Of a stretch of DNA of 29,563 nt, positions 3,160 to 26,890 are shown in pieces (within the stretch, counting starts at the first letter, position 1; each line of letters starts with the position of its first letter). This DNA comes from a virus, in IMG/VR virus record IMGVR_UViG_3300025120_000345, positions 1 to 29,563 of that record; one strand, 5' to 3'. The notes below the pieces were generated by a model that saw only the letters and a program-made list of their open reading frames with translations, had not been told where the DNA came from and did not search any database. A program made the translations under genes and the position numbers.

Positions 3160-3328
3160 TTTAGAACAAATTGAGAAAATGTATTATGAAGCAGGTGGTG
3201 TAAGTGATATTATGTATTGGAATTTATTCCGAGAAGTCAAGCGGTTGCGTGAAATAATAGGTAATCGTGAATGGACTATCAAATTATGTGATGAAGAAAT
3301 CAAGCGATTGAAGGAGATGATTAAATGA
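3152..3328 (+). CDS. Short coiled-coil protein, unknown
   Basis: A 58-aa product if started at TTG 3152, which has a GGGGG/GCGAG purine run 8-10 bases upstream and overlaps the previous gene by 8 bases. ATG 3179 would give 49 aa. The C-terminal half has heptad-like spacing (EVKRLREII, EEIKRLKEMI), suggesting a coiled coil that dimerises. The frame continues upstream to 2963, but that part is out-of-frame reading of the Cys-rich gene. Function unknown. Confidence 0.5.
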   Translation: MIDLEQIEKMYYEAGGVSDIMYWNLFREVKRLREIIGNREWTIKLCDEEIKRLKEMIK

Positions 3329-3906
3329 ACATATTTGCACTATCAAAATGCCCCGTAGAATCAGCACAACAAATGGTGGATAAGCATGTAGTAAAAATGC
3401 CCACTGAAAGTTGTCAAATGCTACACACTAATTCCCTCTACTTTTTGTTTTGGGAAGCACATGGTAGAGAACCTTCTCTAAAAGAATTGAAGGGATTCCA
3501 CAAAGAATCTCACTTCTCTTACATGATGAAACCCGCTATGCTAAATCACCCTAGTACTATTTGGGCTAGGAAAAACAAGGCTAACTTCATGTGGCTATAC
3601 AATCATGCAGTTGCCTTATGCAAAGAATACTCTTACCGCTACGGTAAGACACATGGTACTGAGTCTAGAATACAAGACAGTTTTACCTTCTCTTACGATG
3701 AAGATGAATTGAGTCCTGTATCTATTGCTATGGCTGATGAATACAGACTACCGGAAGAAAAACACACATGGGATTTTGTGATTAAATCCTATCAACACTA
3801 CTACCTTGAAGGTAAGTGGGAGTTTGCTTTTTGGACAAAGCGAGACAATCCAAGTTGGTTTCCTACCTCTTGGAGAGTTACTAAAATACTAAACAAATAC
3901 AGGTGA
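3325..3906 (+). CDS. Conserved phage-type protein, MNIF...DKHVVKM family
   Basis: A 193-aa protein with features of a family widespread in marine phages: MNIF start, DKHVVKM near residues 20-26, a conserved ES-CQML segment, NHPSTIWAR in the middle, a YNHAVALCKEYSYRYGKTH block, and W/F-rich TKR..PSW at the end. Database records of this family are sometimes labelled pyrimidine-dimer DNA glycosylase, but I cannot see T4 endonuclease V catalytic features and treat that label as unproven. The many conserved His, Lys, Glu and Trp residues suggest an enzyme or nucleic-acid binder. It starts by ATGA overlap. Confidence 0.8.
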   Translation: MNIFALSKCPVESAQQMVDKHVVKMPTESCQMLHTNSLYFLFWEAHGREPSLKELKGFHKESHFSYMMKPAMLNHPSTIWARKNKANFMWLYNHAVALCKEYSYRYGKTHGTESRIQDSFTFSYDEDELSPVSIAMADEYRLPEEKHTWDFVIKSYQHYYLEGKWEFAFWTKRDNPSWFPTSWRVTKILNKYR

Positions 3907-5810: not shown

Positions 5811-6971
5811 ATGGATATACCAAGAGAAGCAATTGAATTAAGTTACGAAAGAGAGACTATTCAACCTAAAAGAAGACTAGGAAATGGACGATGGGATAGG
5901 GCTTTGAAAGAGGCACTAGTACGCCTATCAACCGCAGACAATTACAACGATGCTAAATTAGAATGGTTGGCTACAGGCAATGTTTGGTGGTCACAATATG
6001 GTGGAGATAGAGCCGAAGATGCTCCTTTGTGGGTCATGAATTCTAGTATGGGATACGGTAGTTGTCTATGCGGTCATAGGATTATCTATCATTTTGAGAT
6101 AGAGAACACCGAGAACGGTAGAAAGGAATGTGTCGGTAGCGACCACATCAATTCCTATCTAATCCTTAGAGCAATCAAAGAGGCTACAGGTCTTGAAGAT
6201 GAATACATTACTGATGAAATGATTGACCAATGGATTAATGTTCGTATTGAAGGCATGAAGAAAACTGCTTGGTGGGCTACTAATGGTTCAATCTTTGAAT
6301 TTAAATTCAACAAGATTAAGGACTTAGATTTGCGAGTCAATGTTAGAAGTAAAGGGTTCTATTGGGATGAGAAACTAAATACTCATCGTCCTAAGACCTA
6401 TATTCGTAAAAGGGCTATGGATGGAGAAATGGCTTCTATTGTATGGCGTTGGAATCATCCCGATAACCACAAAGCCCAAATTAATACTAAGGGCTACCCC
6501 AACAAAAAACTGTTAGAGGATTTAGATGATTTCTACTATTCATCAAGAGAAACCATTGCTATGATTACTGAGGAAGATGCTATTATGGAAAAGAAAATGG
6601 CCGAGGTTGATAGTATGCGAGAGAAGAGGTATTCTCGCAATATTTCTAATAAGATGGAATTCTTTGGGATTAGTAATTACTACGAAGTGAAGAACAATCT
6701 TCCTTTTGATAATTGGACAACTAACTTCCTTCGGGACATAGAAATCAAATTGAAGAATTCCAATTGGGGTAATGCTCTATCTCAAAAACAGATTGAAACA
6801 TTAACTAAATGTATGGAGGCGGCAACAGATAACCAAATCCAATACATGCAAAACTTAGGATACAACGGTAGTGAAAAAGTGACAAAGAGACAAGCAACCG
6901 TTTGGATTTCCGCAAACAAAGGGGATGGCTTAAATAGTCATGACAAGGTGAACAAAACAGAGGTGAATTAA
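5811..6971 (+). CDS. Multidomain protein with CxCGH knuckle, unknown function
   Basis: A 386-aa protein starting at ATG 5811 with GGAGAG 9 bases upstream. Residues 84-118 resemble a zinc knuckle common in phage proteins, normally CxCGH...N..tG....vGs.CI..f: here C85, C87, H89 and C107 are present but the last Cys is replaced by His112 (GSDHINSYL). The middle region is rich in Trp, Lys and Arg. The last 70 residues carry two short SxKQ/TDxQ helical units (ALSQKQIETLTK; DNQIQYMQNLGY...TKRQATVWI) like small nucleic-acid-binding tails of phage enzymes. No catalytic motif is visible. It immediately precedes the ubiquitin-like gene (1-base gap), so a linked role is possible. Confidence 0.75.
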   Translation: MDIPREAIELSYERETIQPKRRLGNGRWDRALKEALVRLSTADNYNDAKLEWLATGNVWWSQYGGDRAEDAPLWVMNSSMGYGSCLCGHRIIYHFEIENTENGRKECVGSDHINSYLILRAIKEATGLEDEYITDEMIDQWINVRIEGMKKTAWWATNGSIFEFKFNKIKDLDLRVNVRSKGFYWDEKLNTHRPKTYIRKRAMDGEMASIVWRWNHPDNHKAQINTKGYPNKKLLEDLDDFYYSSRETIAMITEEDAIMEKKMAEVDSMREKRYSRNISNKMEFFGISNYYEVKNNLPFDNWTTNFLRDIEIKLKNSNWGNALSQKQIETLTKCMEAATDNQIQYMQNLGYNGSEKVTKRQATVWISANKGDGLNSHDKVNKTEVN

Positions 6972-6972
6972 A

Positions 6973-7179
6973 ATGATTACACTAACGATTTTAAATGAAA
7001 CAGGACACACAGAATTGCAACTCTCTGTAGAGAAGGTTGTAGAACAAATTGAAACACACCCCACACATTGGGTTTTCGTTGATGGTGAGATGGTAAGCCG
7101 CCAAGACATTAACACAATCAATTGGGATACTGTTAGTAGCGTGGACTTGACTCCTGCTATTGTTGGAGGTTCCTGTTGA
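6973..7179 (+). CDS. Ubiquitin-like beta-grasp protein (MoaD/ThiS type) with GG-SC tail
   Basis: A 68-aa protein behind GAGGTGA at 6961-6967. The layout matches the MoaD/ThiS/SAMP fold: strand ITLTILN, short hairpin, strand ELQLS, helix VEKVVEQIET, strand WVFVDGEMV, then SSVDLTPAIVGG, closely resembling the family ending (DEVxLxPxVxGG). The di-glycine is G65-G66, followed by Ser67-Cys68. In this family the Gly-Gly carboxylate is adenylated by an E1-like enzyme, for sulfur transfer or protein conjugation. A two-residue extension would need removal, and this genome encodes both an E1-like protein (10414) and a JAMM peptidase (11115). The assignment rests on pattern rather than a search. Confidence 0.65.
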   Translation: MITLTILNETGHTELQLSVEKVVEQIETHPTHWVFVDGEMVSRQDINTINWDTVSSVDLTPAIVGGSC

Positions 7180-7225
7180 ACCTACCTTGTTGATGAATAA
7201 AACCATCCCTTAAACCGTGGTGCTT

Positions 7226-7507
7226 ATGCCCCTCTATCGTAACTTTGCTCATTGTAGAGCAGTAGTTAAGTCACTTCTACCTATGTTATCGGTAGAGGGG
7301 CAATTGTTCGTTGAGACGGCACTACGACATTCGTTGTTGATGGACGACGAAAAAGAACAAGTCTTCTTCTTAAATTCTAAATTAAAGAATTATCTTTTTG
7401 ATATTGATGAAGCCGTGACAATTGGATTCAACCAATACTTAGCAAAATACATTAAAGATTTTGATGTATATGTTAAATACCACGAAGTAAATAAATTAGA
7501 GGGTTAA
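7226..7507 (+). CDS. Small helical protein, unknown
   Basis: A 93-aa protein from ATG 7226; GTG 7217 and GTG 7220 are in-frame alternatives and GGTG at 7219-7222 is the only Shine-Dalgarno-like word. Predicted mostly helical with Phe/Tyr-rich segments (FNQYLAKYIKDFDVYVKY). No Cys cluster or recognised motif. It follows the ubiquitin-like gene after a 46-base gap that holds nothing else visible. Confidence 0.6.
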   Translation: MPLYRNFAHCRAVVKSLLPMLSVEGQLFVETALRHSLLMDDEKEQVFFLNSKLKNYLFDIDEAVTIGFNQYLAKYIKDFDVYVKYHEVNKLEG

Positions 7508-7509
7508 AT

Positions 7510-7668
7510 ATGTCAAACAATCCAAACTATACAGACAATTCAAGAGGTCGCAAGATAGCGACAAAATGCAGGGTATGTGGAGGCTCTTTACTAACTCCAC
7601 AAGATATGAAAATAGAAGCACATGAAGAATGTGTAAACAATTACAAAACAAAAATGAGAATGATGTGA
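7510..7668 (+). CDS. CCHC zinc microprotein
   Basis: A 52-aa protein from ATG 7510, two bases after the previous stop. C20/C23 (CRVC) and H38/C41 (HEEC) give a CxxC-x14-HxxC zinc site of the kind found in small DNA-binding fingers. The N-terminus is Asn-rich and polar and the C-terminus basic. The downstream gene starts 4 bases after its stop. Function unknown. Confidence 0.65.
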   Translation: MSNNPNYTDNSRGRKIATKCRVCGGSLLTPQDMKIEAHEECVNNYKTKMRMM

Positions 7669-7672
7669 TAAT

Positions 7673-8908
7673 ATGACGGAAATTGAAAACTTAAAGAACA
7701 ACCATACAATTAAAAATTATGATACAGAAACAAAAACCCTACACCTCCCCCTACACAGTGATGGAGGATACCGTGAAACAAAAAAAATAGAAGGGACTGC
7801 CTTCATTATACAGAATGGATATGCGAGTTCTATTGCTCACCATTTCAACGGGAGGGTAGACCAAGTAGTTACCTCATTGGATTCCTTAATAGTCTCCTTT
7901 GCTGAAAAAATGAAAAAGAAGATGAAACTTGCGAATAACCCAAAAGCCTGTTTAGAAATTATAGTGAATGACTACCCAATCGTAGTAACTAACACAACAC
8001 CAATTTCTATTAATGGTTTAAAGGGTACTAAGAGAGAGGTATTCTACAATCTATCTAGGTTCCTTTATCGTGTAAATAATGACATGAGTAGGTCGGAAAC
8101 GATGATGTTATTCTATAGGATATGCAATACTCCTTACGAGATTAGCCATGTTCTTGAAAATAGAATACCGTTTTACTTCTTTAATGGCGGGCGAAGAGTT
8201 AATGTTAGATTGAATGCTAAACAAATAAGTGATGATAAGGTAGCCATAGAGATAAGTGATTCTGTTTGGGGTACTATTTCATTCAAAGACCTGTCTAAGT
8301 ATTTAGGACACTATTTACATGGACACAATAGAGGCTCTTGGAAATTTCTTTCACCACAAAAATTGTACTTCTTATTGATGGGTAAGCAGATAACTGAATC
8401 GGACTCCGATGTTATGATTGCCTTTCTAGAACAGAATAGAACTTCTAAATTAATAGAAGACAGGGCCGAGGTTCTTCTAGAACAAACGCTTGTCAAATAT
8501 AAGAATAAAGTCAAGATGTTGAGCGATAAAGAAACAAACGAACAATATCTACTAGTCAAAGGAATAGATAACGATTGGTTATTCACTTGGAATAGTAATA
8601 GGAAATCGTCGGGTAGGCAATTGGTATCAACTGCTTTCTTATCTCTTGAAGGAGACTACAAATGGAACGGAGTTTGTGTTGATAACCTTCAAAACAATTC
8701 TCCTATACATGACCAACTAGTAACTAGATTGTTGGTCTGTATTAATGACAGAATGACTAAACAAAGAGTCTCTACCATGAAGAGTATTCCTTCCGCTACG
8801 CATAGAATAAATTTTGAATTGGTGGATGATAACAGTAGGTTAGAAATTGCTTATGCTACACATATAGAGAGATATATAGAACCCGTAGAGAGTGAGAACC
8901 TTGATTAA
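7673..8908 (+). CDS. Large protein of unknown function upstream of TFB
   Basis: A 411-aa protein from ATG 7673, with GTGATAAT directly before it. I do not recognise it. The sequence is a mix of beta-rich and basic segments (MKKKMKLANNPKACLEIIV; GTKREVFYNLSRFLYRV; FLSPQKLYFLLMGKQI) with no P-loop, zinc cluster, signal peptide or membrane span. The 3' end overlaps the TFB start by 17 bases, so the two are co-translated and may act together, for example in transcription control. That link is inference from position only. Confidence 0.75.
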   Translation: MTEIENLKNNHTIKNYDTETKTLHLPLHSDGGYRETKKIEGTAFIIQNGYASSIAHHFNGRVDQVVTSLDSLIVSFAEKMKKKMKLANNPKACLEIIVNDYPIVVTNTTPISINGLKGTKREVFYNLSRFLYRVNNDMSRSETMMLFYRICNTPYEISHVLENRIPFYFFNGGRRVNVRLNAKQISDDKVAIEISDSVWGTISFKDLSKYLGHYLHGHNRGSWKFLSPQKLYFLLMGKQITESDSDVMIAFLEQNRTSKLIEDRAEVLLEQTLVKYKNKVKMLSDKETNEQYLLVKGIDNDWLFTWNSNRKSSGRQLVSTAFLSLEGDYKWNGVCVDNLQNNSPIHDQLVTRLLVCINDRMTKQRVSTMKSIPSATHRINFELVDDNSRLEIAYATHIERYIEPVESENLD

Positions 8909-9716
8909 TTGTACTGAATGTAACAGTACTGCTTTTTCGTACAACGAATACATGGGCGAGAAGGAATGTCAAGACTGCGGATTGATTGTAGTAACTGAAC
9001 CCTTTGACCAAACGGTTTCTCTATTTACTCATGATGGAGAAATTATTAGGCATGGAGATAGAACTCTAGGCTCTAGGCCCATTCATAGATACGAAAGGGG
9101 TAGGCGAAGCCATGTTGATGTAGGTTTGGGTTTCTCTAAAATGTTAATGTCTTCTTTGACTAATTCAAAGAGCCAAATGGAGAGAGTAGAAAACGCCTAC
9201 ATGACTTGTTTTAGAGCAGGGATATTTAGTCAATCTACTTATGAAGATAGGGCTAGTGCTTTGGTGTATTATGTCTTAAGGGAAAGAAATCTGCCCTTCA
9301 CTCTAAAAGAAGTCTGTGCTGAGTACGGCTCTAACCAAAGGTTGGTTGCTAAAGTAGCCAAGAAGATTTCTAAGCATTTTAAGAATAGTGGAGTCTTTAT
9401 TCAATCTCTTGATTCTTTGGTAGAGAAGTATTCCCTTCAATTAGGGGACAGGTATTTTGCTAGTACCTGTAGTATCTTACTTTCCTTCTTTGAGAGGGAA
9501 TACGAAATGCGTACTCTTACTCTAAATAAGAGCGCAGTAGCGGGGATACTCTACATAGCAAATCTTTGCGAATTTAAACAACTAACTCAAAAAGAAGTTG
9601 GTGATGTTGTAGGTGTGACTAGTCGCACTTGTAGAGATACAACAAAAAAACTCCTACGAACAGTAGGTAAAACAGAGTCCGAAATAAAAGGACAAGGAAC
9701 ACAATGGATATGGTAA
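8892..9716 (+). CDS. tfb: Transcription initiation factor TFB (TFIIB family)
   Basis: A 274-aa homologue of archaeal TFB, which recruits RNA polymerase to TBP-bound promoters and helps set the start site. The N-terminal zinc ribbon is C7/C10 and C26/C29. It is followed by a basic B-finger/linker region (RPIHRYERGRR) and two cyclin-fold repeats, about 80-165 and 170-260; the second ends with a helix-turn-helix (QKEVGDVVGVTSRTCRDTTKKLL) typical of BRE recognition. Slightly shorter than host TFBs (about 300 aa). The start is GTG 8892; TTG 8901 is the alternative. A viral TFB could redirect host polymerase to viral promoters. No TBP gene is seen in the window. Confidence 0.88.
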   Translation: MRTLINCTECNSTAFSYNEYMGEKECQDCGLIVVTEPFDQTVSLFTHDGEIIRHGDRTLGSRPIHRYERGRRSHVDVGLGFSKMLMSSLTNSKSQMERVENAYMTCFRAGIFSQSTYEDRASALVYYVLRERNLPFTLKEVCAEYGSNQRLVAKVAKKISKHFKNSGVFIQSLDSLVEKYSLQLGDRYFASTCSILLSFFEREYEMRTLTLNKSAVAGILYIANLCEFKQLTQKEVGDVVGVTSRTCRDTTKKLLRTVGKTESEIKGQGTQWIW

Positions 9717-9717
9717 T

Positions 9718-9975
9718 ATGGTTGAAACAAAAACGAGGTGCGAAAACGGTTGTACCTTTCATTATGAACAGGTTGCCTATACACACAATCCAAAAACAGG
9801 AGTCACAATTAAGAATTGGCCTAAAGCCCTATGTGGTAAAGGCTTGACACGCATCTATTGTGAAGTTTGTAATTACCAATATAGCGGTTGTAGAGGACTA
9901 AGTGCTTCTCAAATAAAAGAAGGTGCGGAATGTAAAAAATGCTTAATTATAATTGCTAAAAGGAAGGCGATTTAA
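9718..9975 (+). CDS. Cys-rich zinc protein
   Basis: An 85-aa protein with eight cysteines (8, 12, 39, 48, 51, 58, 72, 75), including CEVC and CKKC pairs, consistent with two zinc sites. It starts one base after the TFB stop, with GGTAAT before the ATG, so it is likely co-expressed with TFB. The C-terminus is hydrophobic then basic. Function unknown; it could be a small transcription-associated factor by position. Confidence 0.65.
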   Translation: MVETKTRCENGCTFHYEQVAYTHNPKTGVTIKNWPKALCGKGLTRIYCEVCNYQYSGCRGLSASQIKEGAECKKCLIIIAKRKAI

Positions 9976-10002
9976 ATGAAAGAACAGAAAGGAGATGATA
10001 AT

Positions 10003-10269
10003 ATGAAATGTAAAATATGCGAAAAAGAAATGGAGACTTGGGAAGGGAATAACCCTCAACCGATTCTAACTAAGTTTGAAGATAGAGTTTGTCGTGAATG
10101 TAATTGTTATGTGACGGCAACTAGAATGATGTTAGCCCCACTGTTTTCTCAGTTTGATGCGTCAATTCAAGATGAATTATACAGAGGACTTGCTAGTATG
10201 ATAAGTATGTCATATACCATGAAAGAATCACAATCAGCATTTGAAGAGTGGAGGAATAAAAATGAATAA
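10003..10269 (+). CDS. Zinc-finger small protein
   Basis: An 88-aa protein with C3/C6 and C30/C33/C35, then a helical C-terminal half. ATG 10003 is preceded by GGAGATGATAAT. An in-frame ATG at 9976 also has a Shine-Dalgarno-like GGAAGG and would add nine residues, so two starts are possible. It overlaps the next gene by 8 bases. Function unknown. Confidence 0.65.
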   Translation: MKCKICEKEMETWEGNNPQPILTKFEDRVCRECNCYVTATRMMLAPLFSQFDASIQDELYRGLASMISMSYTMKESQSAFEEWRNKNE

Positions 10270-10411
10270 AGATACAGAAGATAAATTAAAGAGTACTTTA
10301 GCAAGAGACAAACTATTAGAACGCCTATTCAAGATGGATTTATCTTGTAGGGATTTAGAATGGTTAGCGGAAGGAATAATGGAAGAAGTCTATTGCAGAA
10401 TGGAGGAATAA
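10262..10411 (+). CDS. 49-aa helical protein, unknown
   Basis: A 49-aa ORF from ATG 10262 with GAGGAATAAAA immediately upstream. The product is highly charged and helical (DKLKSTLARDKLLERLFKMD) with two single Cys. It ends 2 bases before the E1-like gene start and contains that gene's ribosome-binding site, so it is probably coupled to it. Not recognised. Confidence 0.6.
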   Translation: MNKDTEDKLKSTLARDKLLERLFKMDLSCRDLEWLAEGIMEEVYCRMEE

Positions 10412-10413
10412 AA

Positions 10414-10968
10414 ATGAAAAGAAAAATATTGATAATTGGAGCAGGTGGAATTGGAAGTTTTCTAATCCCACTACTAGATAAGACGGGCCTTTACACGATT
10501 AGCGTAAGTGACCCCGACACCGTAGATACAAAGAACCTACCTTACCAAAACTTCACGGAAGATGAAGTGGGTGAATTGAAAGTGATGGCCCTACAAAAGA
10601 GGTATCCCATCAGTCCAAGTAAATTCCCTATCCTAACAGACGGGCAAATACAAGGATATGATTTGGTAGTATGTTGTGTGGATAATCTATCCGCACGAAG
10701 GATGCTATACCGTTCAAACATAGCGTGGCTAGACCTTCGCTCCCAAGCAAGGAACGCCGCCTATGTATCCTACAAGGCCGACCCTAAAATGTATGATACT
10801 ATGCTAGCAGGGCCGGATGGTAGTTTTTCCTGTCAAGGTGATTCATGGGATGGCTCTACAGAAGGAGTACATTTCTTACAAGTTGCTATTGCAGGAATGG
10901 GTGCTGAATGGGTTCAGCGTTGGTTTAATGATGAAGAAGTAAACGGTTTTGCCGTGATTAATGTTTGA
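10414..10968 (+). CDS. E1-like / ThiF-MoeB adenylating enzyme
   Basis: A 184-aa protein from ATG 10414 (GGAGG 10402-10406). A Rossmann glycine loop GAGGIGS (residues 9-15) is followed by SDPDTVDTKNLPYQ, the ThiF/E1 signature D-x-D-x-V-...-N-L-x-x-Q. N41, K56 (in VGELK) and D90 (CCVDN) match the ATP-binding Asn, Lys and Asp of MoeB; the usual Arg of NLxRQ is Tyr44. C140 (SFSCQGD) is in the right place for a catalytic Cys, and the usual pair of CxxC zinc motifs is absent. At 184 aa it is shorter than MoeB/ThiF (about 250). The family activates the C-terminal Gly of a ubiquitin-like protein with ATP; the likely substrate is the 6973 product. ThiF-family call is firm; exact pathway is inference. 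Confidence 0.82.
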   Translation: MKRKILIIGAGGIGSFLIPLLDKTGLYTISVSDPDTVDTKNLPYQNFTEDEVGELKVMALQKRYPISPSKFPILTDGQIQGYDLVVCCVDNLSARRMLYRSNIAWLDLRSQARNAAYVSYKADPKMYDTMLAGPDGSFSCQGDSWDGSTEGVHFLQVAIAGMGAEWVQRWFNDEEVNGFAVINV

Positions 10969-10977
10969 GGTGATAAT

Positions 10978-11118
10978 ATGGGAGTATATGATTTTTTAGA
11001 AGAAGAAACTGAGAATGAAGAAGTGGATAAAATATCCTTAACTTCAATGTGGATAATAACCATTATTGGTTGGTTCGTAACTTACCTAATTTGGGAAGAT
11101 GCAGGGTGGTTACCATGA
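10978..11118 (+). CDS. 46-aa single-pass membrane protein
   Basis: A 46-aa ORF with the strong start context GGTGATAATATG. The N-terminus is very acidic (FLEEETENEEVDK) and followed by one hydrophobic segment of about 17 residues (MWIITIIGWFVTYLIW) and a short tail (EDAGWLP). It lies 9 bases after the E1-like gene and overlaps the JAMM gene by ATGA, so all three are probably translated together. It could anchor the ubiquitin-like machinery at the membrane or be a target of it; neither can be shown here. Confidence 0.65.
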   Translation: MGVYDFLEEETENEEVDKISLTSMWIITIIGWFVTYLIWEDAGWLP

Positions 11119-11660
11119 GCAGTAGAACAACCATGAATTCAGTTGAATTACTAAAAGCGAAACATCTACAGGAATTAAGAGGATTAGTTGAGCCTTACAT
11201 TCAAGGAGTCTTTGATGAGATGTTAGTAAATCACAATGGAGAAGACATAGTAAAGAATCCTAGATTCCATTCAGCAATTTGGGAAGCCTCTACAAAAATA
11301 TTACCTAACTTAGAAGTACAGGTAGTAGTTGATGCAAATTTTAACTTACATATTTCTAGTGGTTCATCGGGCTATGTAGATTTTCAAATTAACCCTGTAG
11401 GGATGAAGTTACCGATTAAGTGTTGGATACATACTCATCCTTTCGGTAGTGCTTATTTCAGTGGAGTTGATTGGAGAACAATTAGAATTTGGGGAGCCAA
11501 GATGGAATCCGCTTATGTTCTAGGCGGATATAGCCATTATGGAGTTTGGAGTAATAAACTACCCGAACTACTAAAGATAATTACCTACGAAAGTATTGAC
11601 GAATTCTCAACAAGAATTCAACATATGAATAAAGGTTTTATTGGAGGGGAAGAAGAATGA
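11115..11660 (+). CDS. JAB/MPN metalloprotease with JAMM motif
   Basis: A 181-aa protein from ATG 11115, coupled to the membrane-protein gene; a longer GTG-started version (11049) would run through that gene and is unlikely. The JAMM zinc signature H-x-H-x7-S-x2-D is intact: H106, H108, S116 and D119 in IHTHPFGSAYFSGVD. JAMM enzymes remove ubiquitin or ubiquitin-like proteins from targets or trim their C-terminal extensions. The N-terminal 60 residues form a helical extension absent from minimal JAMM enzymes, and the C-terminus ends GGEEE. With an E1-like gene 146 bases upstream and a Ubl ending GG-SC, it probably processes or recycles that Ubl. A phage-tail JAB role is less likely because no NlpC/P60 or tail genes are adjacent. 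Confidence 0.85.
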   Translation: MSSRTTMNSVELLKAKHLQELRGLVEPYIQGVFDEMLVNHNGEDIVKNPRFHSAIWEASTKILPNLEVQVVVDANFNLHISSGSSGYVDFQINPVGMKLPIKCWIHTHPFGSAYFSGVDWRTIRIWGAKMESAYVLGGYSHYGVWSNKLPELLKIITYESIDEFSTRIQHMNKGFIGGEEE

Positions 11661-12356: not shown

Positions 12357-12572
12357 ATGAAAGCGGTTGGAGATTGGGTCGTAGTTAAAAGCGAAGAGAA
12401 AGAAAGTACACACGGAATCCTTTCTTTAGAAGAAAACAAAGGTACAGTCATTGATTGTCAATGCGATTCTTCTCTTATTGGGAAGACTATCTTTTATTCT
12501 ATAGAGAAAGCAAAGAAGAATCGTGGATTTATCTTTGTCCAATACAGTGACATTTACGGGGTGGAAGAATGA
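12357..12572 (+). CDS. groES: GroES-like co-chaperonin, short form
   Basis: A 71-aa protein that would cap the GroEL-type ring encoded next. The N-terminus (DWVVVKSEE) matches GroES (DRVIVKRKE). The mobile loop ESTHGILSL carries G20-I21-L22 in place of the GroEL-contacting Ile-Val-Leu of bacterial GroES. It ends SDIYGVEE, like the GroES ending ESDILAIVE. It is about 25 residues shorter than bacterial GroES (95-97), so part of the central barrel and probably the roof hairpin are lost. Its stop overlaps the GroEL start. The order groES-groEL is the usual bacterial one. Confidence 0.75.
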   Translation: MKAVGDWVVVKSEEKESTHGILSLEENKGTVIDCQCDSSLIGKTIFYSIEKAKKNRGFIFVQYSDIYGVEE

Positions 12573-14086
12573 TTCTCTTTGGTAACGAAGTGAAGGAAAA
12601 AATCCTACAGGGCATTAATTTGGTTGCTGACACAGTTAGGCCAACATTAGGCCCACAAGCCCGTACTGCTATCCTACAAGGCACTCCACCTGTTGTTATC
12701 AACGATGGCGTGACAATCGCTAAGTATGTTAGTCATGAAGACCCTTATGTTCAAATGGGAATTCAATTGGTACAGAATCTAGCATTCAAAGCACAATCAA
12801 AGGCAGGTGATGGAACAACAACGGCGTGTGTTTTAGCACAGTCTCTTTGTAATTCTATTATGTCTATGCCTCTAACCAACCTACATTCCATTAGAAACAA
12901 TCTAGAATATGTGAGGGATGAAATGATGTTGTGCTTAGATAATTTGGCCGAACCCGTTACCGAAGAGTCTATTCTAGATGTTGCTACCATTGCCGCTAAT
13001 AACGACTCGGTTTTAGGGGAATTGATTGCAGAAGTATTTTCTCATGTAGGTAAAGACGGGGTTATTTCTGTTGAAGAAGGGCATGGATTGACTACAGAAT
13101 TTGAGTTAAAGGAAGGCTTAGAATTAGATAATGGTTATGCTAGTCACCTATTTGCTAATCAAGATAGTGGCGAATGTATCCTAGAGAAGCCATTAGTATT
13201 CTGTACCAATAAAACAATCATTAACTTTAGTGATATTCTTCCTGCACTAGAGTATGCTTCTTCTAAGAGTCGCCCGTTGTATTTGATTTGTGGGGACTTA
13301 AGAGGCTCTGCCCTATCTAATGTATTAGCGAATGTTGTTCAAGGAAGAATACAGATTGGTGTAACACAAGCCCCTAATCATGGTGATGCTAGACTAGATG
13401 AATTGAAAGATATAATTTCTGTCGTAGGAGGAAAATTATTCTCCGATGAAGCAAAGGATGATTTGCGTATTGTTGATGAGTCTTCCTTTGGTGAATGTGA
13501 TAAGGTCATATTGAACCAAGTTGATTCAACAATCATAGGGGGCATTGGAAATCCCAAAGATAGAGTAGAATCACTAACGGGATTATACAAGGTTGCTAAC
13601 AACGATTGGATTAGGGAAAGACTAACCACTAGAATTTCTAGATTGAAGGGAGGCATTGCAGTGATTACTGTAGGTGGTGGTTCTAGTGTTGAATTGAGAG
13701 AAACCAAAGAAAGACTTGATGACGCACTGAACGCTACTAAGGCCGCATTACAAGAGGGAGTTATTGTGGGTGGAGGCTTAGGTCTACTCTTGGCCTTCCA
13801 AGAGATGAAGAAGGAAGTTGATGTTCCCAACCTACCATACCTTGCTGATGTTTTCATGACACCAATTAGTGTTCTATTACAGAACGGTGATGCAACAGAA
13901 GATATTTGGGATTTAATCAAACCTAGTGAACTAATAGGTTACAATGCTAAAACAGGAGAAGTAGAAAATCTTTGGGAAGAAGGAGTTATTGACCCTGTTA
14001 AAGTAACTAAGAGTAGTTTATCAGCCGCTATGTCAATCGCACTAATGTTCTTATCTACAGAAGTAGCAGTTCTTAAAGAGGAATAG
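12569..14086 (+). CDS. groEL: Group I chaperonin, GroEL/Hsp60 type
   Basis: A 505-aa chaperonin that folds proteins by ATP-driven encapsulation. It is group I, not thermosome: TVRPTLGPQARTAIL near 22-36 matches GroEL TLGPKGRNVVL; GDGTTTACVLA at 80-90 contains the ATP-binding Asp81; GKDGVISVEEG, RLKGGIAVITVGG and RLDDALNATKAALQEGVIVGGG align to GroEL in order, including the Asp equivalent to hydrolytic D398. Shorter than GroEL (548) with reduced apical and intermediate regions, and it lacks the Gly-Gly-Met tail. Cotranscribed with the GroES-like gene. Viral chaperonins are thought to fold capsid or replication proteins. Confidence 0.93.
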   Translation: MILFGNEVKEKILQGINLVADTVRPTLGPQARTAILQGTPPVVINDGVTIAKYVSHEDPYVQMGIQLVQNLAFKAQSKAGDGTTTACVLAQSLCNSIMSMPLTNLHSIRNNLEYVRDEMMLCLDNLAEPVTEESILDVATIAANNDSVLGELIAEVFSHVGKDGVISVEEGHGLTTEFELKEGLELDNGYASHLFANQDSGECILEKPLVFCTNKTIINFSDILPALEYASSKSRPLYLICGDLRGSALSNVLANVVQGRIQIGVTQAPNHGDARLDELKDIISVVGGKLFSDEAKDDLRIVDESSFGECDKVILNQVDSTIIGGIGNPKDRVESLTGLYKVANNDWIRERLTTRISRLKGGIAVITVGGGSSVELRETKERLDDALNATKAALQEGVIVGGGLGLLLAFQEMKKEVDVPNLPYLADVFMTPISVLLQNGDATEDIWDLIKPSELIGYNAKTGEVENLWEEGVIDPVKVTKSSLSAAMSIALMFLSTEVAVLKEE

Positions 14087-23372: not shown

Positions 23373-25136
23373 ATGATAATTGCTAATTATGAAAATACAA
23401 TATACACATCTAATAGAAACCAACAAGGAGAATTGTCTACAGAATTAGTAGACTTTGCTCCTTACTTTTATGTACCGGATTCTTATAGGGAACCTGCACA
23501 ATATAGTGTAGGTATGCTAAGAAGAGACTTTTCCTATGTAAAGGGCGAATGGTTTTCTATTGATGGTACTAAACTAAAGCGAGTTTACTACGAGAAGCCA
23601 TCACATGTAGATAGTGCTAGGAAGCCATTTAAGCATCCTAAGTTGGGCGATATGACCTATGAAGCAGATGTTTCATTAGTTAATCGCTACGCAGTTGATT
23701 CTTTAGATGTTATGAAACCTTACACCCTAAAGAAGTATTATTGGGATATGGAATGGATGCAAGGCGGAGTGCATGACGGTAAGATTACTGCTATTGCTCT
23801 TTACGATAACTTCTCTAAAAACTTCCATGTGTGGGTATGGTATCCTAAAGAATCGTTTGCTAAAGTTACTAAGCCATCAGTAGATGGTTATACTAGTGTT
23901 CTTGACTACAGTACTTCCGAAGCAGAAATGCTAACTAAGTTTGTTGCTTTTCTTTCGGAAGAAAAACCCGATATGATGGTTGCTTGGTTTGGTCTTAAGT
24001 TTGACCTACCCAAACTACTAGGAAGATGTATTGCTAATGAGATTGACCCTAGAAGTATTTCTCCAATGAATGTTATTGATGGAATAGAAGAAAGTCTAGA
24101 CGGTCTAAAGTTTACTAAAAGTGGAGGGTATTCTCCTATTGCACAACCCGTCAAAGGTATGATTAACTTAAATCTTGATGTTGCTTTTGAGCGACAATGG
24201 AATGATGCACAAAGAGGGACACTACCAAGTCTTGCTTTGGACTATGTTTCTAAAACATTATTCGGTGAAGGTAAGTATATTGAAACTAAATTTACCGACC
24301 CTAATGAGTTTTATTCAAGGGCTTGGTTAGAAGATAAGTATTCTTATCTACAATACACTATCATAGATGTAGAATTACTAAGAAAGATAGACGAGGAAAA
24401 CCATTGCAGTGAGGCTATTATATCCTTACAAAGATTGCTAGTGGCTCCCTTTGAGTCTTGCTTTTATGCTTCTCACATGGGTAGTATTTACTTTATGAAC
24501 AATGCTAGTTGGAAATGTAAGACAGGTGTTAGATTAAAAACAAAGAAGTGTGATGATTGCGGATACGAAAATCCTAAAGATAAACAACTGAAAGAATGTA
24601 AAAAGTGCGGTGCATCTCTATCTTATTCGGGTGCTATGATTTACAATCCATTGGATGAAGGTACGAATGGACTACATCTTAATGTGGCGGCGTTTGACTT
24701 TGCTGGACTCTATCCTTCAATGATTATCGCTAGGAACATCAGTTTTGAAACCATCAGTGAAATACCCACTGCTTTTTGTGCTGATTTGAATACACCACAA
24801 AATCTACGCCCTGTATCGGTGGACTACGAGCCTAACATGCTATACTTCAAGACTGATGAATTGGGCCTTCTCCCTCGCTCTTTGTTGGCTCTCAAGGACT
24901 TGAGAAACGACTACAAGAAGAAGATGAAGGTTGCTAGAGATGGTGACGATAAAGAAGAGTATGTCAAGTGGAATAACAACCAAATGGCCGTCAAGAGATT
25001 GATGGCTTCGTTCTACGGAATCCTTGCTTTTAGAGGGTTCGGTTGGAGTAACAAAGACCTAGCCGCTAGCATTACTGCAAGCGCAAGAGAGGCAATTAGA
25101 TTAGCCGCATTTAAAGCAAGGGAGATGAAAGAATGA
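23373..25136 (+). CDS. polB-N: Family B DNA polymerase, N-terminal part (exonuclease, motifs A and B)
   Basis: A 587-aa N-terminal portion of a replicative PolB. Exo I is D125-M-E127, Exo II ends in D211 (GLKFD; the usual Asn of NxxxFD is not seen), Exo III is Y328-TII-D332, so 3'-5' proofreading residues are largely kept. Motif A DFAGLYPS has catalytic Asp442. Motif B is KRLMASFYGILA. Before motif A there is an inserted zinc ribbon, C393/C396 and C409/C412. The protein stops just after motif B (AFKAREMKE); motif C and the thumb are in a separate gene at 25985. The two parts must associate to form an active site. CGAGGAATATAA precedes ATG 23373. Confidence 0.93.
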   Translation: MIIANYENTIYTSNRNQQGELSTELVDFAPYFYVPDSYREPAQYSVGMLRRDFSYVKGEWFSIDGTKLKRVYYEKPSHVDSARKPFKHPKLGDMTYEADVSLVNRYAVDSLDVMKPYTLKKYYWDMEWMQGGVHDGKITAIALYDNFSKNFHVWVWYPKESFAKVTKPSVDGYTSVLDYSTSEAEMLTKFVAFLSEEKPDMMVAWFGLKFDLPKLLGRCIANEIDPRSISPMNVIDGIEESLDGLKFTKSGGYSPIAQPVKGMINLNLDVAFERQWNDAQRGTLPSLALDYVSKTLFGEGKYIETKFTDPNEFYSRAWLEDKYSYLQYTIIDVELLRKIDEENHCSEAIISLQRLLVAPFESCFYASHMGSIYFMNNASWKCKTGVRLKTKKCDDCGYENPKDKQLKECKKCGASLSYSGAMIYNPLDEGTNGLHLNVAAFDFAGLYPSMIIARNISFETISEIPTAFCADLNTPQNLRPVSVDYEPNMLYFKTDELGLLPRSLLALKDLRNDYKKKMKVARDGDDKEEYVKWNNNQMAVKRLMASFYGILAFRGFGWSNKDLAASITASAREAIRLAAFKAREMKE

Positions 25137-25857: not shown

Positions 25858-25988
25858 AGTGCGATATGTGTAGAGAAGAGAATGCTGAAACAAGAGGACT
25901 AAGATGCGGGAAATACAAAGTGTGTGACCCCTGTATTACTAAGTCTATTGAAGCAAGAATGTTTTTAATTGGGAGAGATAAACAATGA
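25854..25988 (+). CDS. 44-aa zinc microprotein
   Basis: A 44-aa ORF, ATG 25854, coupled at both ends (ATGA 25854 and 25985) with AGGAGGTGGT upstream. C3/C6, C18, C24/C27 (CDMC, CDPC) give one zinc site. It immediately precedes the C-terminal polymerase gene, so it might be translated with it. Confidence 0.65.
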   Translation: MKCDMCREENAETRGLRCGKYKVCDPCITKSIEARMFLIGRDKQ

Positions 25989-26890
25989 AAGTAGTATATG
26001 GACACACAGATTCCATTTATATTAAATGTGATTCAGTAGAAAAAGCAAAAGTAGCAATAGAAGAAATTAACGACCATGTTAGAGAATCCTTTCCTAATGT
26101 ACTTGGTCTAGAACAACACCCTGTAGTATTGGAGTTTGAGAAATTCTATTCTAGTTTAGGAGTAGGCACTACTAAGAACCGAAATGTAGGGCTTGTATCT
26201 TGGCTAGATGGTGTTTGGTTGGACGAACCTAAGTTCGTAATGACAGGATTTACTGCTAAGAAAATTTCCGAAACGGGGTTTGCTAGAGATATTCAAAGTA
26301 CTGTTCTTAGAATGTGGGTAGACCAATGTTCCTTTGAAGAAATAAACGAATACCTACATCAAAAGTATTCTACTGTACTGAAAGGTGAAATAGATTTTGA
26401 ATCTATTGTCAAAAGAAGTCGGTTTAAGGAAGAACGGTTTAAGGTAAAATGTTCTTGTGGTAAGGGCTATTCTGTGTTTGATTTGCAGAAAAAGCACAAA
26501 TTCACACAAGGTAAGAGAACAAATTTCTGTTCTAAATGTGCGGCTGAGTTTACAACCTTCACTACTAAAGAAGGTAAGAAGCCGGTATTCGGAGCAGGTA
26601 ATTCGGCAATATTATTCGGAGTAGAAAAACTAAATCTGCCTACTAATATTGACTCTTATGTTTTCATCAAGTGCAAACCGGCAGGACATTATACTAACCC
26701 GCTAACAGGAAAACAAGTAGAGGCGACTTATGTTGCAGGAAGAACCTTTGACGAACTAAGAGAGTATTCTCCCGATTGGTCACATTATGCAGACCAAGTA
26801 ATTAAGAAAGCAGAACCCGTTTACAAAGCAATGGAATGGGACACTGCAAGCATAAAAACTAAAGAAAAGAAACTATCGGATTGGTGGTAA
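25985..26890 (+). CDS. polB-C: Family B DNA polymerase, C-terminal part (motif C, thumb)
   Basis: A 301-aa C-terminal portion beginning exactly at motif C: MKVVYGHTDSIYIK. The usual YGDTDS reads Y5-G-H7-T-D9-S; the catalytic second Asp (D9) is kept but the first is His. Residues 61-69 (TTKNRNVGL) take the place of the KKRY motif. A second zinc ribbon, C156/C158 and C182/C185, is inserted in the thumb region. The C-terminus KKLSDWW resembles a PIP box (hydrophobic-x-x-aromatic-aromatic) for PCNA. Start is ATG 25985, overlapping the previous stop. It must pair with the 23373 product. Confidence 0.9.
   Translation: MKVVYGHTDSIYIKCDSVEKAKVAIEEINDHVRESFPNVLGLEQHPVVLEFEKFYSSLGVGTTKNRNVGLVSWLDGVWLDEPKFVMTGFTAKKISETGFARDIQSTVLRMWVDQCSFEEINEYLHQKYSTVLKGEIDFESIVKRSRFKEERFKVKCSCGKGYSVFDLQKKHKFTQGKRTNFCSKCAAEFTTFTTKEGKKPVFGAGNSAILFGVEKLNLPTNIDSYVFIKCKPAGHYTNPLTGKQVEATYVAGRTFDELREYSPDWSHYADQVIKKAEPVYKAMEWDTASIKTKEKKLSDWW

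Follow-up and report, generated by a model that had tools for sequence, protein, structure and literature searches.

A probable virus-encoded ubiquitin-like conjugation and deconjugation gene set in a magrovirus-like virus record

The stretch of DNA analyzed here (the window, 29,563 nucleotides) comprises positions 1 to 29,563 of the IMG/VR virus record IMGVR_UViG_3300025120_000345. It includes genes for a ubiquitin-like protein (Ubl) of 68 residues, an E1/ThiF-like adenylating enzyme (E1) and a JAMM metalloprotease, with the gene of a 411-residue protein, a candidate E2, among them (Table 1). An earlier note had read the first three as a ubiquitin-like conjugation or processing system, and its open reading frames, beginning at 6973, 10414 and 11115, were all found where it had placed them. 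The predicted fold of the Ubl and the co-occurrence of the genes support this interpretation, and the best reading of the data is that the gene set of a Ubl cycle is fixed in the magrovirus-like records sampled. Relatives were collected by scanning viral sequences with peptide patterns, which yielded at least 158 loci, several per contig (for the Ubl, the best 80 of 90 matches). Conservation was counted over distinct sequences, window included, after leaving out E1 and JAMM reading frames cut by the end of a locus.

Table 1. Features of the locus, with positions in the window.
Feature	Position	Strand	Basis
Ubl, predicted beta-grasp protein, 68 residues, C-terminus PAIVGG-SC	6973..7179	+	predicted ubiquitin fold; GG in 81/81 distinct sequences
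Gly65-Gly66 plus Ser-Cys tail (tail 7171-7176)	7165..7176	+	tail lengths across relatives
52-residue Cys-rich protein (CxxC...H..C)	7510..7668	+	in 78/88 cassettes distinct by spacing
411-residue protein, candidate E2; UBC-like C-terminal domain at about residues 256-405	7673..8908	+	model, gene position
Cys335 codon, candidate E2 catalytic cysteine	8675..8677	+	Cys in 98/98 distinct sequences
Viral TFIIB/TFB homologue	8892..9716	+	TFIIB repeat E 4e-4, below cut-off
E1/ThiF-like adenylating enzyme, 184 residues, candidate catalytic Cys140 (10831-10833)	10414..10968	+	ThiF match, conserved residues
JAMM/JAB metalloprotease; E67, H106, H108, S116, D119	11115..11660	+	likely start ATG 11115

The AlphaFold2 (AF2) model of the Ubl has ubiquitin topology, beta-beta-alpha-beta-beta-(h)-beta, with residues 65-68 disordered (predicted local distance difference test, pLDDT, 82.6; predicted template modeling score, pTM, 0.62). 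Judged by their titles, almost all of the 50 best Foldseek matches in the PDB belong to the ubiquitin superfamily (such as ubiquitin, NEDD8, ISG15, SUMO, MoaD and ThiS). The molybdopterin-converting factor chain 3rpf_C ranks first in VIA (Z 5.7), where the fold matches also include 8tyx and 8tyz, two bacterial Ubl complexes that we take to be complexes of the Bil system. Some of the results weigh against the assignment: the Foldseek E-values are modest (best 2.2e-3), the best VIA Z is below 8, the tool's caution level, and in Pfam comparisons the PinA inhibitor is matched by more Ubls (30/64, best 1.4e-4) than is ThiS (3/64, best 8e-4). The single window sequence has no Pfam match, and comparison of the Ubl profile with the PDB gave no useful match. 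The protein is nevertheless predicted to adopt a beta-grasp fold of the Ub/ThiS/MoaD type, as the earlier note had proposed; the AF2 model and the fold matches agree on this, and structure prediction did not indicate another fold.

The same note described the protein as ending in PAIVGG. The GG pair is indeed present, but the window Ubl ends in GGSC, and in all 81 distinct sequences GG is followed by zero to three variable residues. Among 78 distinct sequences the tail has no residue in 11, one in 11, two in 54 and three in 2 cases. Its last residue is often Tyr (26), Leu (17) or Cys (10), and these three end 53 of the 67 tailed Ubls, which perhaps reflects a preference of the JAMM protease. 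At the sequence level, an invariant GG followed by a short hypervariable tail resembles the arrangement in Ub-type precursors. A chance origin of the Ubl reading frame was rejected, because 63 diverse relatives share 43-79% identity with it and the GG was outside the search patterns. We also rejected the GG tail as an artefact of an overlapping gene, as no ATG lies over the tail or stop codon in 14 cases (GTG and TTG starts were not excluded), and a Rhodobacter phage match to the Ubl (E 0.2), antisense to tail genes, was read as chance.

The E1 matches Pfam ThiF (PF00899) with an E-value of 1.8e-16, and its family profile matches eukaryotic E1s, UBA5, MccB, Cap2 and MoeB. It scores best with ThiF-type models in NCBIfam, reaches 33.4 bits against a cut-off of 450 with the UbaA-type E1 equivalog model, and finds its best PADLOC defence matches among the E1-E2 models (1.6e-10). 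Both the ThiF fold and the GxGGxG, D, N, K and D residues of the nucleotide site are recognizable. The residues N41, K56, D90 and C140 named in the earlier note, whose numbering fits the ATG at 10414, are unchanged in 22 of 22 aligned diverse E1s, and all 98 distinct sequences carry GxGGIG, D54, D56, N62, K77, D111, N112 and C161 (the last equal to C140 when counted from the ATG). A profile alignment (98%, 203 columns) places C140 (SFSCQG) on the conserved Cys in the E1 domains of bacterial E2-E1 fusions, written SCQ, GCQ, GCG or GCA in six of seven such fusions; we take this Cys to be the catalytic one of Cap2-type proteins. Two observations count against this picture: the Arg of the NLxRQ motif is replaced by Tyr (95/98) or Asn (3/98) in the viral enzymes, as it is also missing from two crAss-like E1s, and C140 falls on no Cys in an alignment with crAss-phage E1s. 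Adenylation and thioester formation are therefore not assured.

The JAMM reading frame can also open at a GTG at 11049, and its nearest relatives match from residue 23 on. The single sequence is a weak match to Prok-JAB (E 0.039, 14.3 bits versus a cut-off of 25), and the assignment becomes clear at the level of the family, of which 37 of 38 members match Prok-JAB at E-values up to 1 (best 9.8e-5). Against the PDB, the family profile matches AMSH-like proteases best (1e-4), Sst2 at 8e-4 and an Rpn11-like protein at 0.03. The H106, H108, S116 and D119 that had been described as intact (numbered from 11115) are present in 99 of 99 distinct sequences, and the upstream Glu (E67) is kept in all 97 that have a residue at that place, which makes up the complete E ... 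HxH ... S-x2-D motif of JAMM/MPN+ proteases. The peptide patterns used in the searches contained neither the GG of the Ubl, nor C140, nor the H/H/S/D residues of the protease, all of which are nonetheless invariant; their conservation is thus more than chance.

The absence of an E2-like gene in the earlier note is probably wrong, since the 411-residue protein is a candidate. Its gene is placed between those of the Ubl and the E1 in every one of the 134 loci that hold all three of the other genes (full loci). The C-terminal part of its model (pLDDT 83, pTM 0.62) has a helix at 258-275, five strands within 280-334, Cys335 and a helix at 345-357; Cys335, the candidate catalytic residue, stands ten residues before a helix. 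Among the top 50 VIA rows 36 name an E2, nearly all on residues ~256-405. The pattern G-x-[LIV]-C-[LIV], which forms the centre of the E2 active-site signature, was found at some position in 84 of 98 distinct proteins (the window has NGVCV, one residue shorter), and many relatives have V-x-T-x-[VI]-[WY]-Q-P and then G-x-I-C-I-D, by eye similar to the F-V-T-K-I-W-H-P-N and then G-A-I-C-L-D of E2s. When compared with E2 profiles, the UBC-like domain was the top scorer in three of five comparisons (e2all, euE2, mixE2), and the best alignment was at the G-x-I-C motif in all five. Its score with five human E2s, 20.9, was the highest of seven profiles (P 0.014; 1 of 60 column shuffles reached it), and comparison with three sets of bacterial E2s also gave its best local alignment at G-x-I-C, with insignificant scores.

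Other results argue against an E2. The VIA Z-scores of these matches are only 3.5-4.6, within the tool's noise range, and a common arrangement is a possible reason for them; hhalign probabilities of the domain against E2 profiles are only 0.3-3%; the score with the mixed E2 set was reached by 4 of 60 column shuffles; the unrelated family g5811 scored higher in the e2b set; the UBC-like domain was outscored in the uq set by the N-terminal half of its own protein; and searches of the PDB and Pfam with hidden Markov models returned no E2. The best Foldseek E-value of the model was 0.02, to other folds, and neither Foldseek nor VIA assigned a fold to the N-terminal half. BFVD contains three near full-length nameless relatives and, weakly, an entomopoxvirus E2 (E 0.24, probability 0.51). 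Considering the suggestive support from fold and sequence together, we lean towards an E2 role for this protein. Its sequence similarity to E2s falls short of that required for classification, so it may work like an E2 and is not classed as one.

Of 159 loci, counting the window, 134 hold the Ubl, E1 and JAMM genes together, with one gene order and a single strand in 134/134. These full loci are not independent, and 88 of them are distinct by spacing when the window is left out. In the remaining 25 loci the missing gene would not fit if the largest observed spacing is taken as the measure, and no locus with room has E1 or JAMM without Ubl. All of 33 long records have both the Ubl and a ThiF match over the cut-off, although these records had been found through the three genes. 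In a separate sampling based on the family B polymerase (PolB), the best 80 of 583 records were taken, which are those nearest to the window, with distant groups under-sampled; the 35 searched were those of at least 18 kb, minus one (L196) already counted. The Ubl was found in 20, E1 in 23 and JAMM in 25, and all 20 records with a Ubl have both E1 and JAMM. In the 15 records without a Ubl, the contig extends 1-14 kb beyond the polymerase start towards the expected Ubl, compared to a distance of 16.4 kb between the two in the window. These records end before the expected place of the Ubl, and the PolB sampling agrees with the co-occurrence of the cassette. Relatives with E1 and JAMM and lacking any Ubl, which the earlier note had named as evidence against its reading, were thus seen neither among the 159 loci nor among the 35 PolB-sampled records wherever room exists. 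Median ratios of nonsynonymous to synonymous substitution rates (dN/dS), obtained from related, non-independent pairs, are 0.20 for Ubl, 0.21 for E1, 0.45 for JAMM and 0.48 for the 411-residue gene.

The families or predicted folds, the invariant candidate catalytic residues, the gene order and the co-occurrence are all computed observations, and we consider it probable that they reflect a virus-encoded, self-contained system of Ubl conjugation and deconjugation consisting of the Ubl, a probable E2, the E1 and the JAMM protease. From these observations we infer the chemical steps, the E2 activity and the targets. JAMM would trim the Ubl tail of zero to three residues and expose Gly66, which E1 would adenylate with ATP and bind as a thioester at Cys140. 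The Ubl could then pass to Cys335 in the UBC-like domain of the 411-residue protein, or straight to targets, and would be coupled to lysines in proteins of the host or the virus, from which JAMM would take it off again.

The Ubl modifiers of the archaeal SAMP system end in GG. That system combines a small Ubl, one MoeB/ThiF-type E1 (UbaA) and a reversing JAMM protease, HvJAMM1 (PMC4443979, PMC5587910, PMC4895103). The viral set resembles it (SAMP1/2, UbaA, HvJAMM1) in its small GG Ubl, its MoeB/ThiF-type E1 and a JAMM that would remove the tag, but differs in that its genes are linked, that GG is often followed by one to three residues and that its E1 is far below the UbaA cut-off. It also has a probable E2 gene, whereas E2 and E3 are reported not to be required for SAMP (PMC11354881). 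The same four roles are clustered in the bacterial Bil system (BilA Ubl, BilB E2, BilC JAB, BilD E1), three of them being well supported in the viral set and the E2 probable. Bil is a bacterial anti-phage defence, and the viral set is virus-borne. A further difference lies in the two Ubl domains of BilA and the two adenylation domains of BilD; JAB processing of the Bil Ubl is a parallel to the trimming proposed for the viral one (PMC11354881). Likeness to Cap2/Cap3 of the type II cyclic-oligonucleotide-based anti-phage signaling system (CBASS) lies in the E1 domains of bacterial E2-E1 fusions (named Cap2-type here), whose alignment with the viral E1 matches the Cys of one to the Cys of the other. 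Cap2 fuses E2 and E1. Unlike CBASS, the viral set has a separate Ubl, and no cGAS-like enzyme was seen among the window proteins scanned.

A related gene arrangement is found in crAss-like phages, where a JAB, an E1 and two uncharacterised genes, whose Ubl and E2 roles are hypothetical, are adjacent (crAss001 gp76-gp79). The crAss001 JAB and ThiF proteins are annotated as a metalloprotease and a thiamine biosynthesis protein, and the profiles of ten crAss-like JABs and E1s match the viral JAMM (95%) and E1 (99%) families in hhalign. The crAss-like block follows the primase (L268, L269, L283-L290) and includes a gene of 201-308 residues (9 of 10 regions aligned) and a gene of 371-444 residues that has an HSH motif in all 10 regions, together with the JAB-type protease gene and the ThiF E1. 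Homology of two crAss families, of 433 and 253 residues, to the 411-residue protein and the Ubl is not supported (hhalign probability ~1% or less). The block is possibly a second viral Ubl-type set, and the JAB-E1 pair indicates that use by viruses is wider than one lineage, which lowers any claim to uniqueness. We presume a resemblance of the crAss JAB-E1 cassette to PRTRC, for which only a weak PRTRC_A match (0.0072) was seen.

All 134 full loci contain a TFB match, and in each of the 88 distinct cassettes it falls, like the 411-residue gene, between the Ubl and JAMM genes. Its place in the cassette may represent transcription coupling, or only a fixed gene order. SAMP2 has been described in Haloferax as promoting breakdown of the TATA-binding protein TBP2 (PMC4895103), a route that the viral Ubl may use. 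Because the cassette always brackets the viral TFB gene, the system may tag host transcription factors for removal, with the viral TFB taking over meanwhile. We advance only tentatively, as somewhat less probable than not, the full proposal that a complete four-part cascade (Ubl, E2, E1, JAMM) belongs to the fixed gene core of an archaeal virus order and may tag host transcription factors for removal.

The functions suggested in the earlier note were the tagging of host or viral proteins, interference with host SAMP-type tagging, and sulfur supply; conjugation is favored by the present analysis, and sulfur supply has become less likely. As a sulfur relay, the Ubl would be a carrier like MoaD, ThiS, TtuB or CysO, thiocarboxylated by E1 and recycled by JAMM in the way that Mec+ recycles CysO, for use in tRNA thiolation or cofactor synthesis. 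The fold matches of the Ubl to 3rpf_C (Z 5.7), ThiS and TtuB, the 3 of 64 Ubl members that match ThiS, the ThiF-type models that best describe the E1 in NCBIfam and the two tRNA genes of the window, tRNA-Arg(TCT) and tRNA-Leu(TAA), are all in keeping with such a role. However, a PLP (pyridoxal phosphate) synthase (PF00291, CysM-type) and an NcsA/TtuA-type ATPase (PF01171) were each found in 0 of 33 records, which may be incomplete, in searches that detected positive controls in 14 of 14 genomes. Moreover, residues after GG are unexpected on a free carrier, and every full cassette has the E2-like gene. The host could still supply the remaining partners, but because no CysM-type or NcsA/TtuA-type partner was found in any of the 33 records, we regard a sulfur-carrier role as unlikely and as less likely than conjugation.

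The cassette could also serve counter-defence, with the viral JAMM stripping SAMP-type tags of the host and the viral Ubl and E1 competing with host tagging or jamming it. Bacteria tag phage proteins with Ubls (cited in PMC12660748), numerous deSAMPylases are predicted in archaeal Borg elements (PMC12660748), and the nearest relatives of the JAMM family are deubiquitinases. Counter-tagging alone would need neither an E1 nor a Ubl, however, and it leaves the joint retention and purifying selection of a whole making-and-attaching pathway unexplained; JAMM is also present in every full cassette, as would be expected of the partner of the virus's own Ubl. We consider this quite improbable, and still more so a device for virion assembly like that of TAPI (Ub-like) and TAPK (JAB and NlpC/P60) in the lambda tail. 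These provide a phage precedent with a Ubl and a JAB, but the lambda sets described in PMC1779556 have no E1. The genes of the cassette lie among helicase, TFB, ligase, RFC and PolB genes, and no structural gene or NlpC/P60 domain was recognised among the window proteins scanned; such a device is the least probable of the alternatives.

Most known Ubl tagging in prokaryotes serves host physiology, as in SAMP, or defence against phages, as in Bil and CBASS. The virus lineage sampled here appears to carry a whole Ubl kit as an obligatory component and, if this reading is true, archaeal viruses would be users of Ubl tagging and not just its victims. The four-protein set is expressible and testable, and may bear on the spread of linked Ubl-E2-E1-JAMM systems. 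In the literature searched, whose scope did not extend to the main magrovirus gene lists, no archaeal virus was reported to have Ubl, E1 and JAMM genes as a set. A term search found no ubiquitin, ThiF or JAB in PMC10160649, PMC5332604, PMC5628999, PMC10768690 and PMC8651126 (JAB domain in the last), and PMC12999244 names none of them. The nearest earlier report found concerns the JAMM deSAMPylases of Borgs, selfish archaeal elements with JAMM proteases, of which the Lilac Borg also has SAMP (PMC12660748). The Borg proteases differ from the viral set in being multicopy, and the available part of that article describes no linked Ubl-E2-E1-JAMM core set.

The 29.6-kb record also encodes a UvrD-like helicase, a chaperonin, an ATP-dependent ligase, an RFC-like AAA ATPase and a family B polymerase. 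This gene content fits descriptions of the Magrovirus group (order Magrovirales) by the International Committee on Taxonomy of Viruses (ICTV). The profiles available from ICTV characterize the group by a tailed-virus genome of ~90-110 kb with PolB, ATP-dependent ligase and chaperonin genes, and tRNA-Arg-TCT has served to place a magrovirus (PMC5628999). In an annotated phage collection, the window polymerase matches haloviruses, cyanophages and other phages at 22-26% identity (40 matches listed of 465 records); as no named magrovirus is among these annotated matches, the magrovirus-like status of the virus is inferred from published descriptions. Its hosts are probably abundant ocean archaea. 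A search of genome contigs found the Ubl on three more contigs (L265, L266, L267), all in one metagenome-assembled genome of Altibacter; these are probably stray virus contigs in the bin, and they link no host to the virus.

Directly upstream of the Ubl, a gene of 386 residues (5811-6971) has a conserved CxCxH...H motif, is present in 77 of 88 distinct cassettes and belongs to no Pfam family. One IMG/VR record, G014 (184733 bases; loci L143 and L145), has two Ubls, two ThiF genes and two polymerases, and is probably a contig in which two virus genomes are joined. The family B polymerase of the window is split between reading frames at 23373-25136 and 25985-26890 with two small reading frames between them, and the N-terminal frame is likewise 540-590 residues long in 22 of 25 relatives fetched, the other three being shorter and two of these cut by a contig end. 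Within 12357-14086, a 71-residue gene with no Pfam match adjoins the Cpn60/TCP1 chaperonin gene; the ICTV notes GroEL and GroES for Aoguangviridae. Positions 3325-3906 encode a homologue of pyrimidine dimer DNA glycosylase (PF03013, 2.5e-7).

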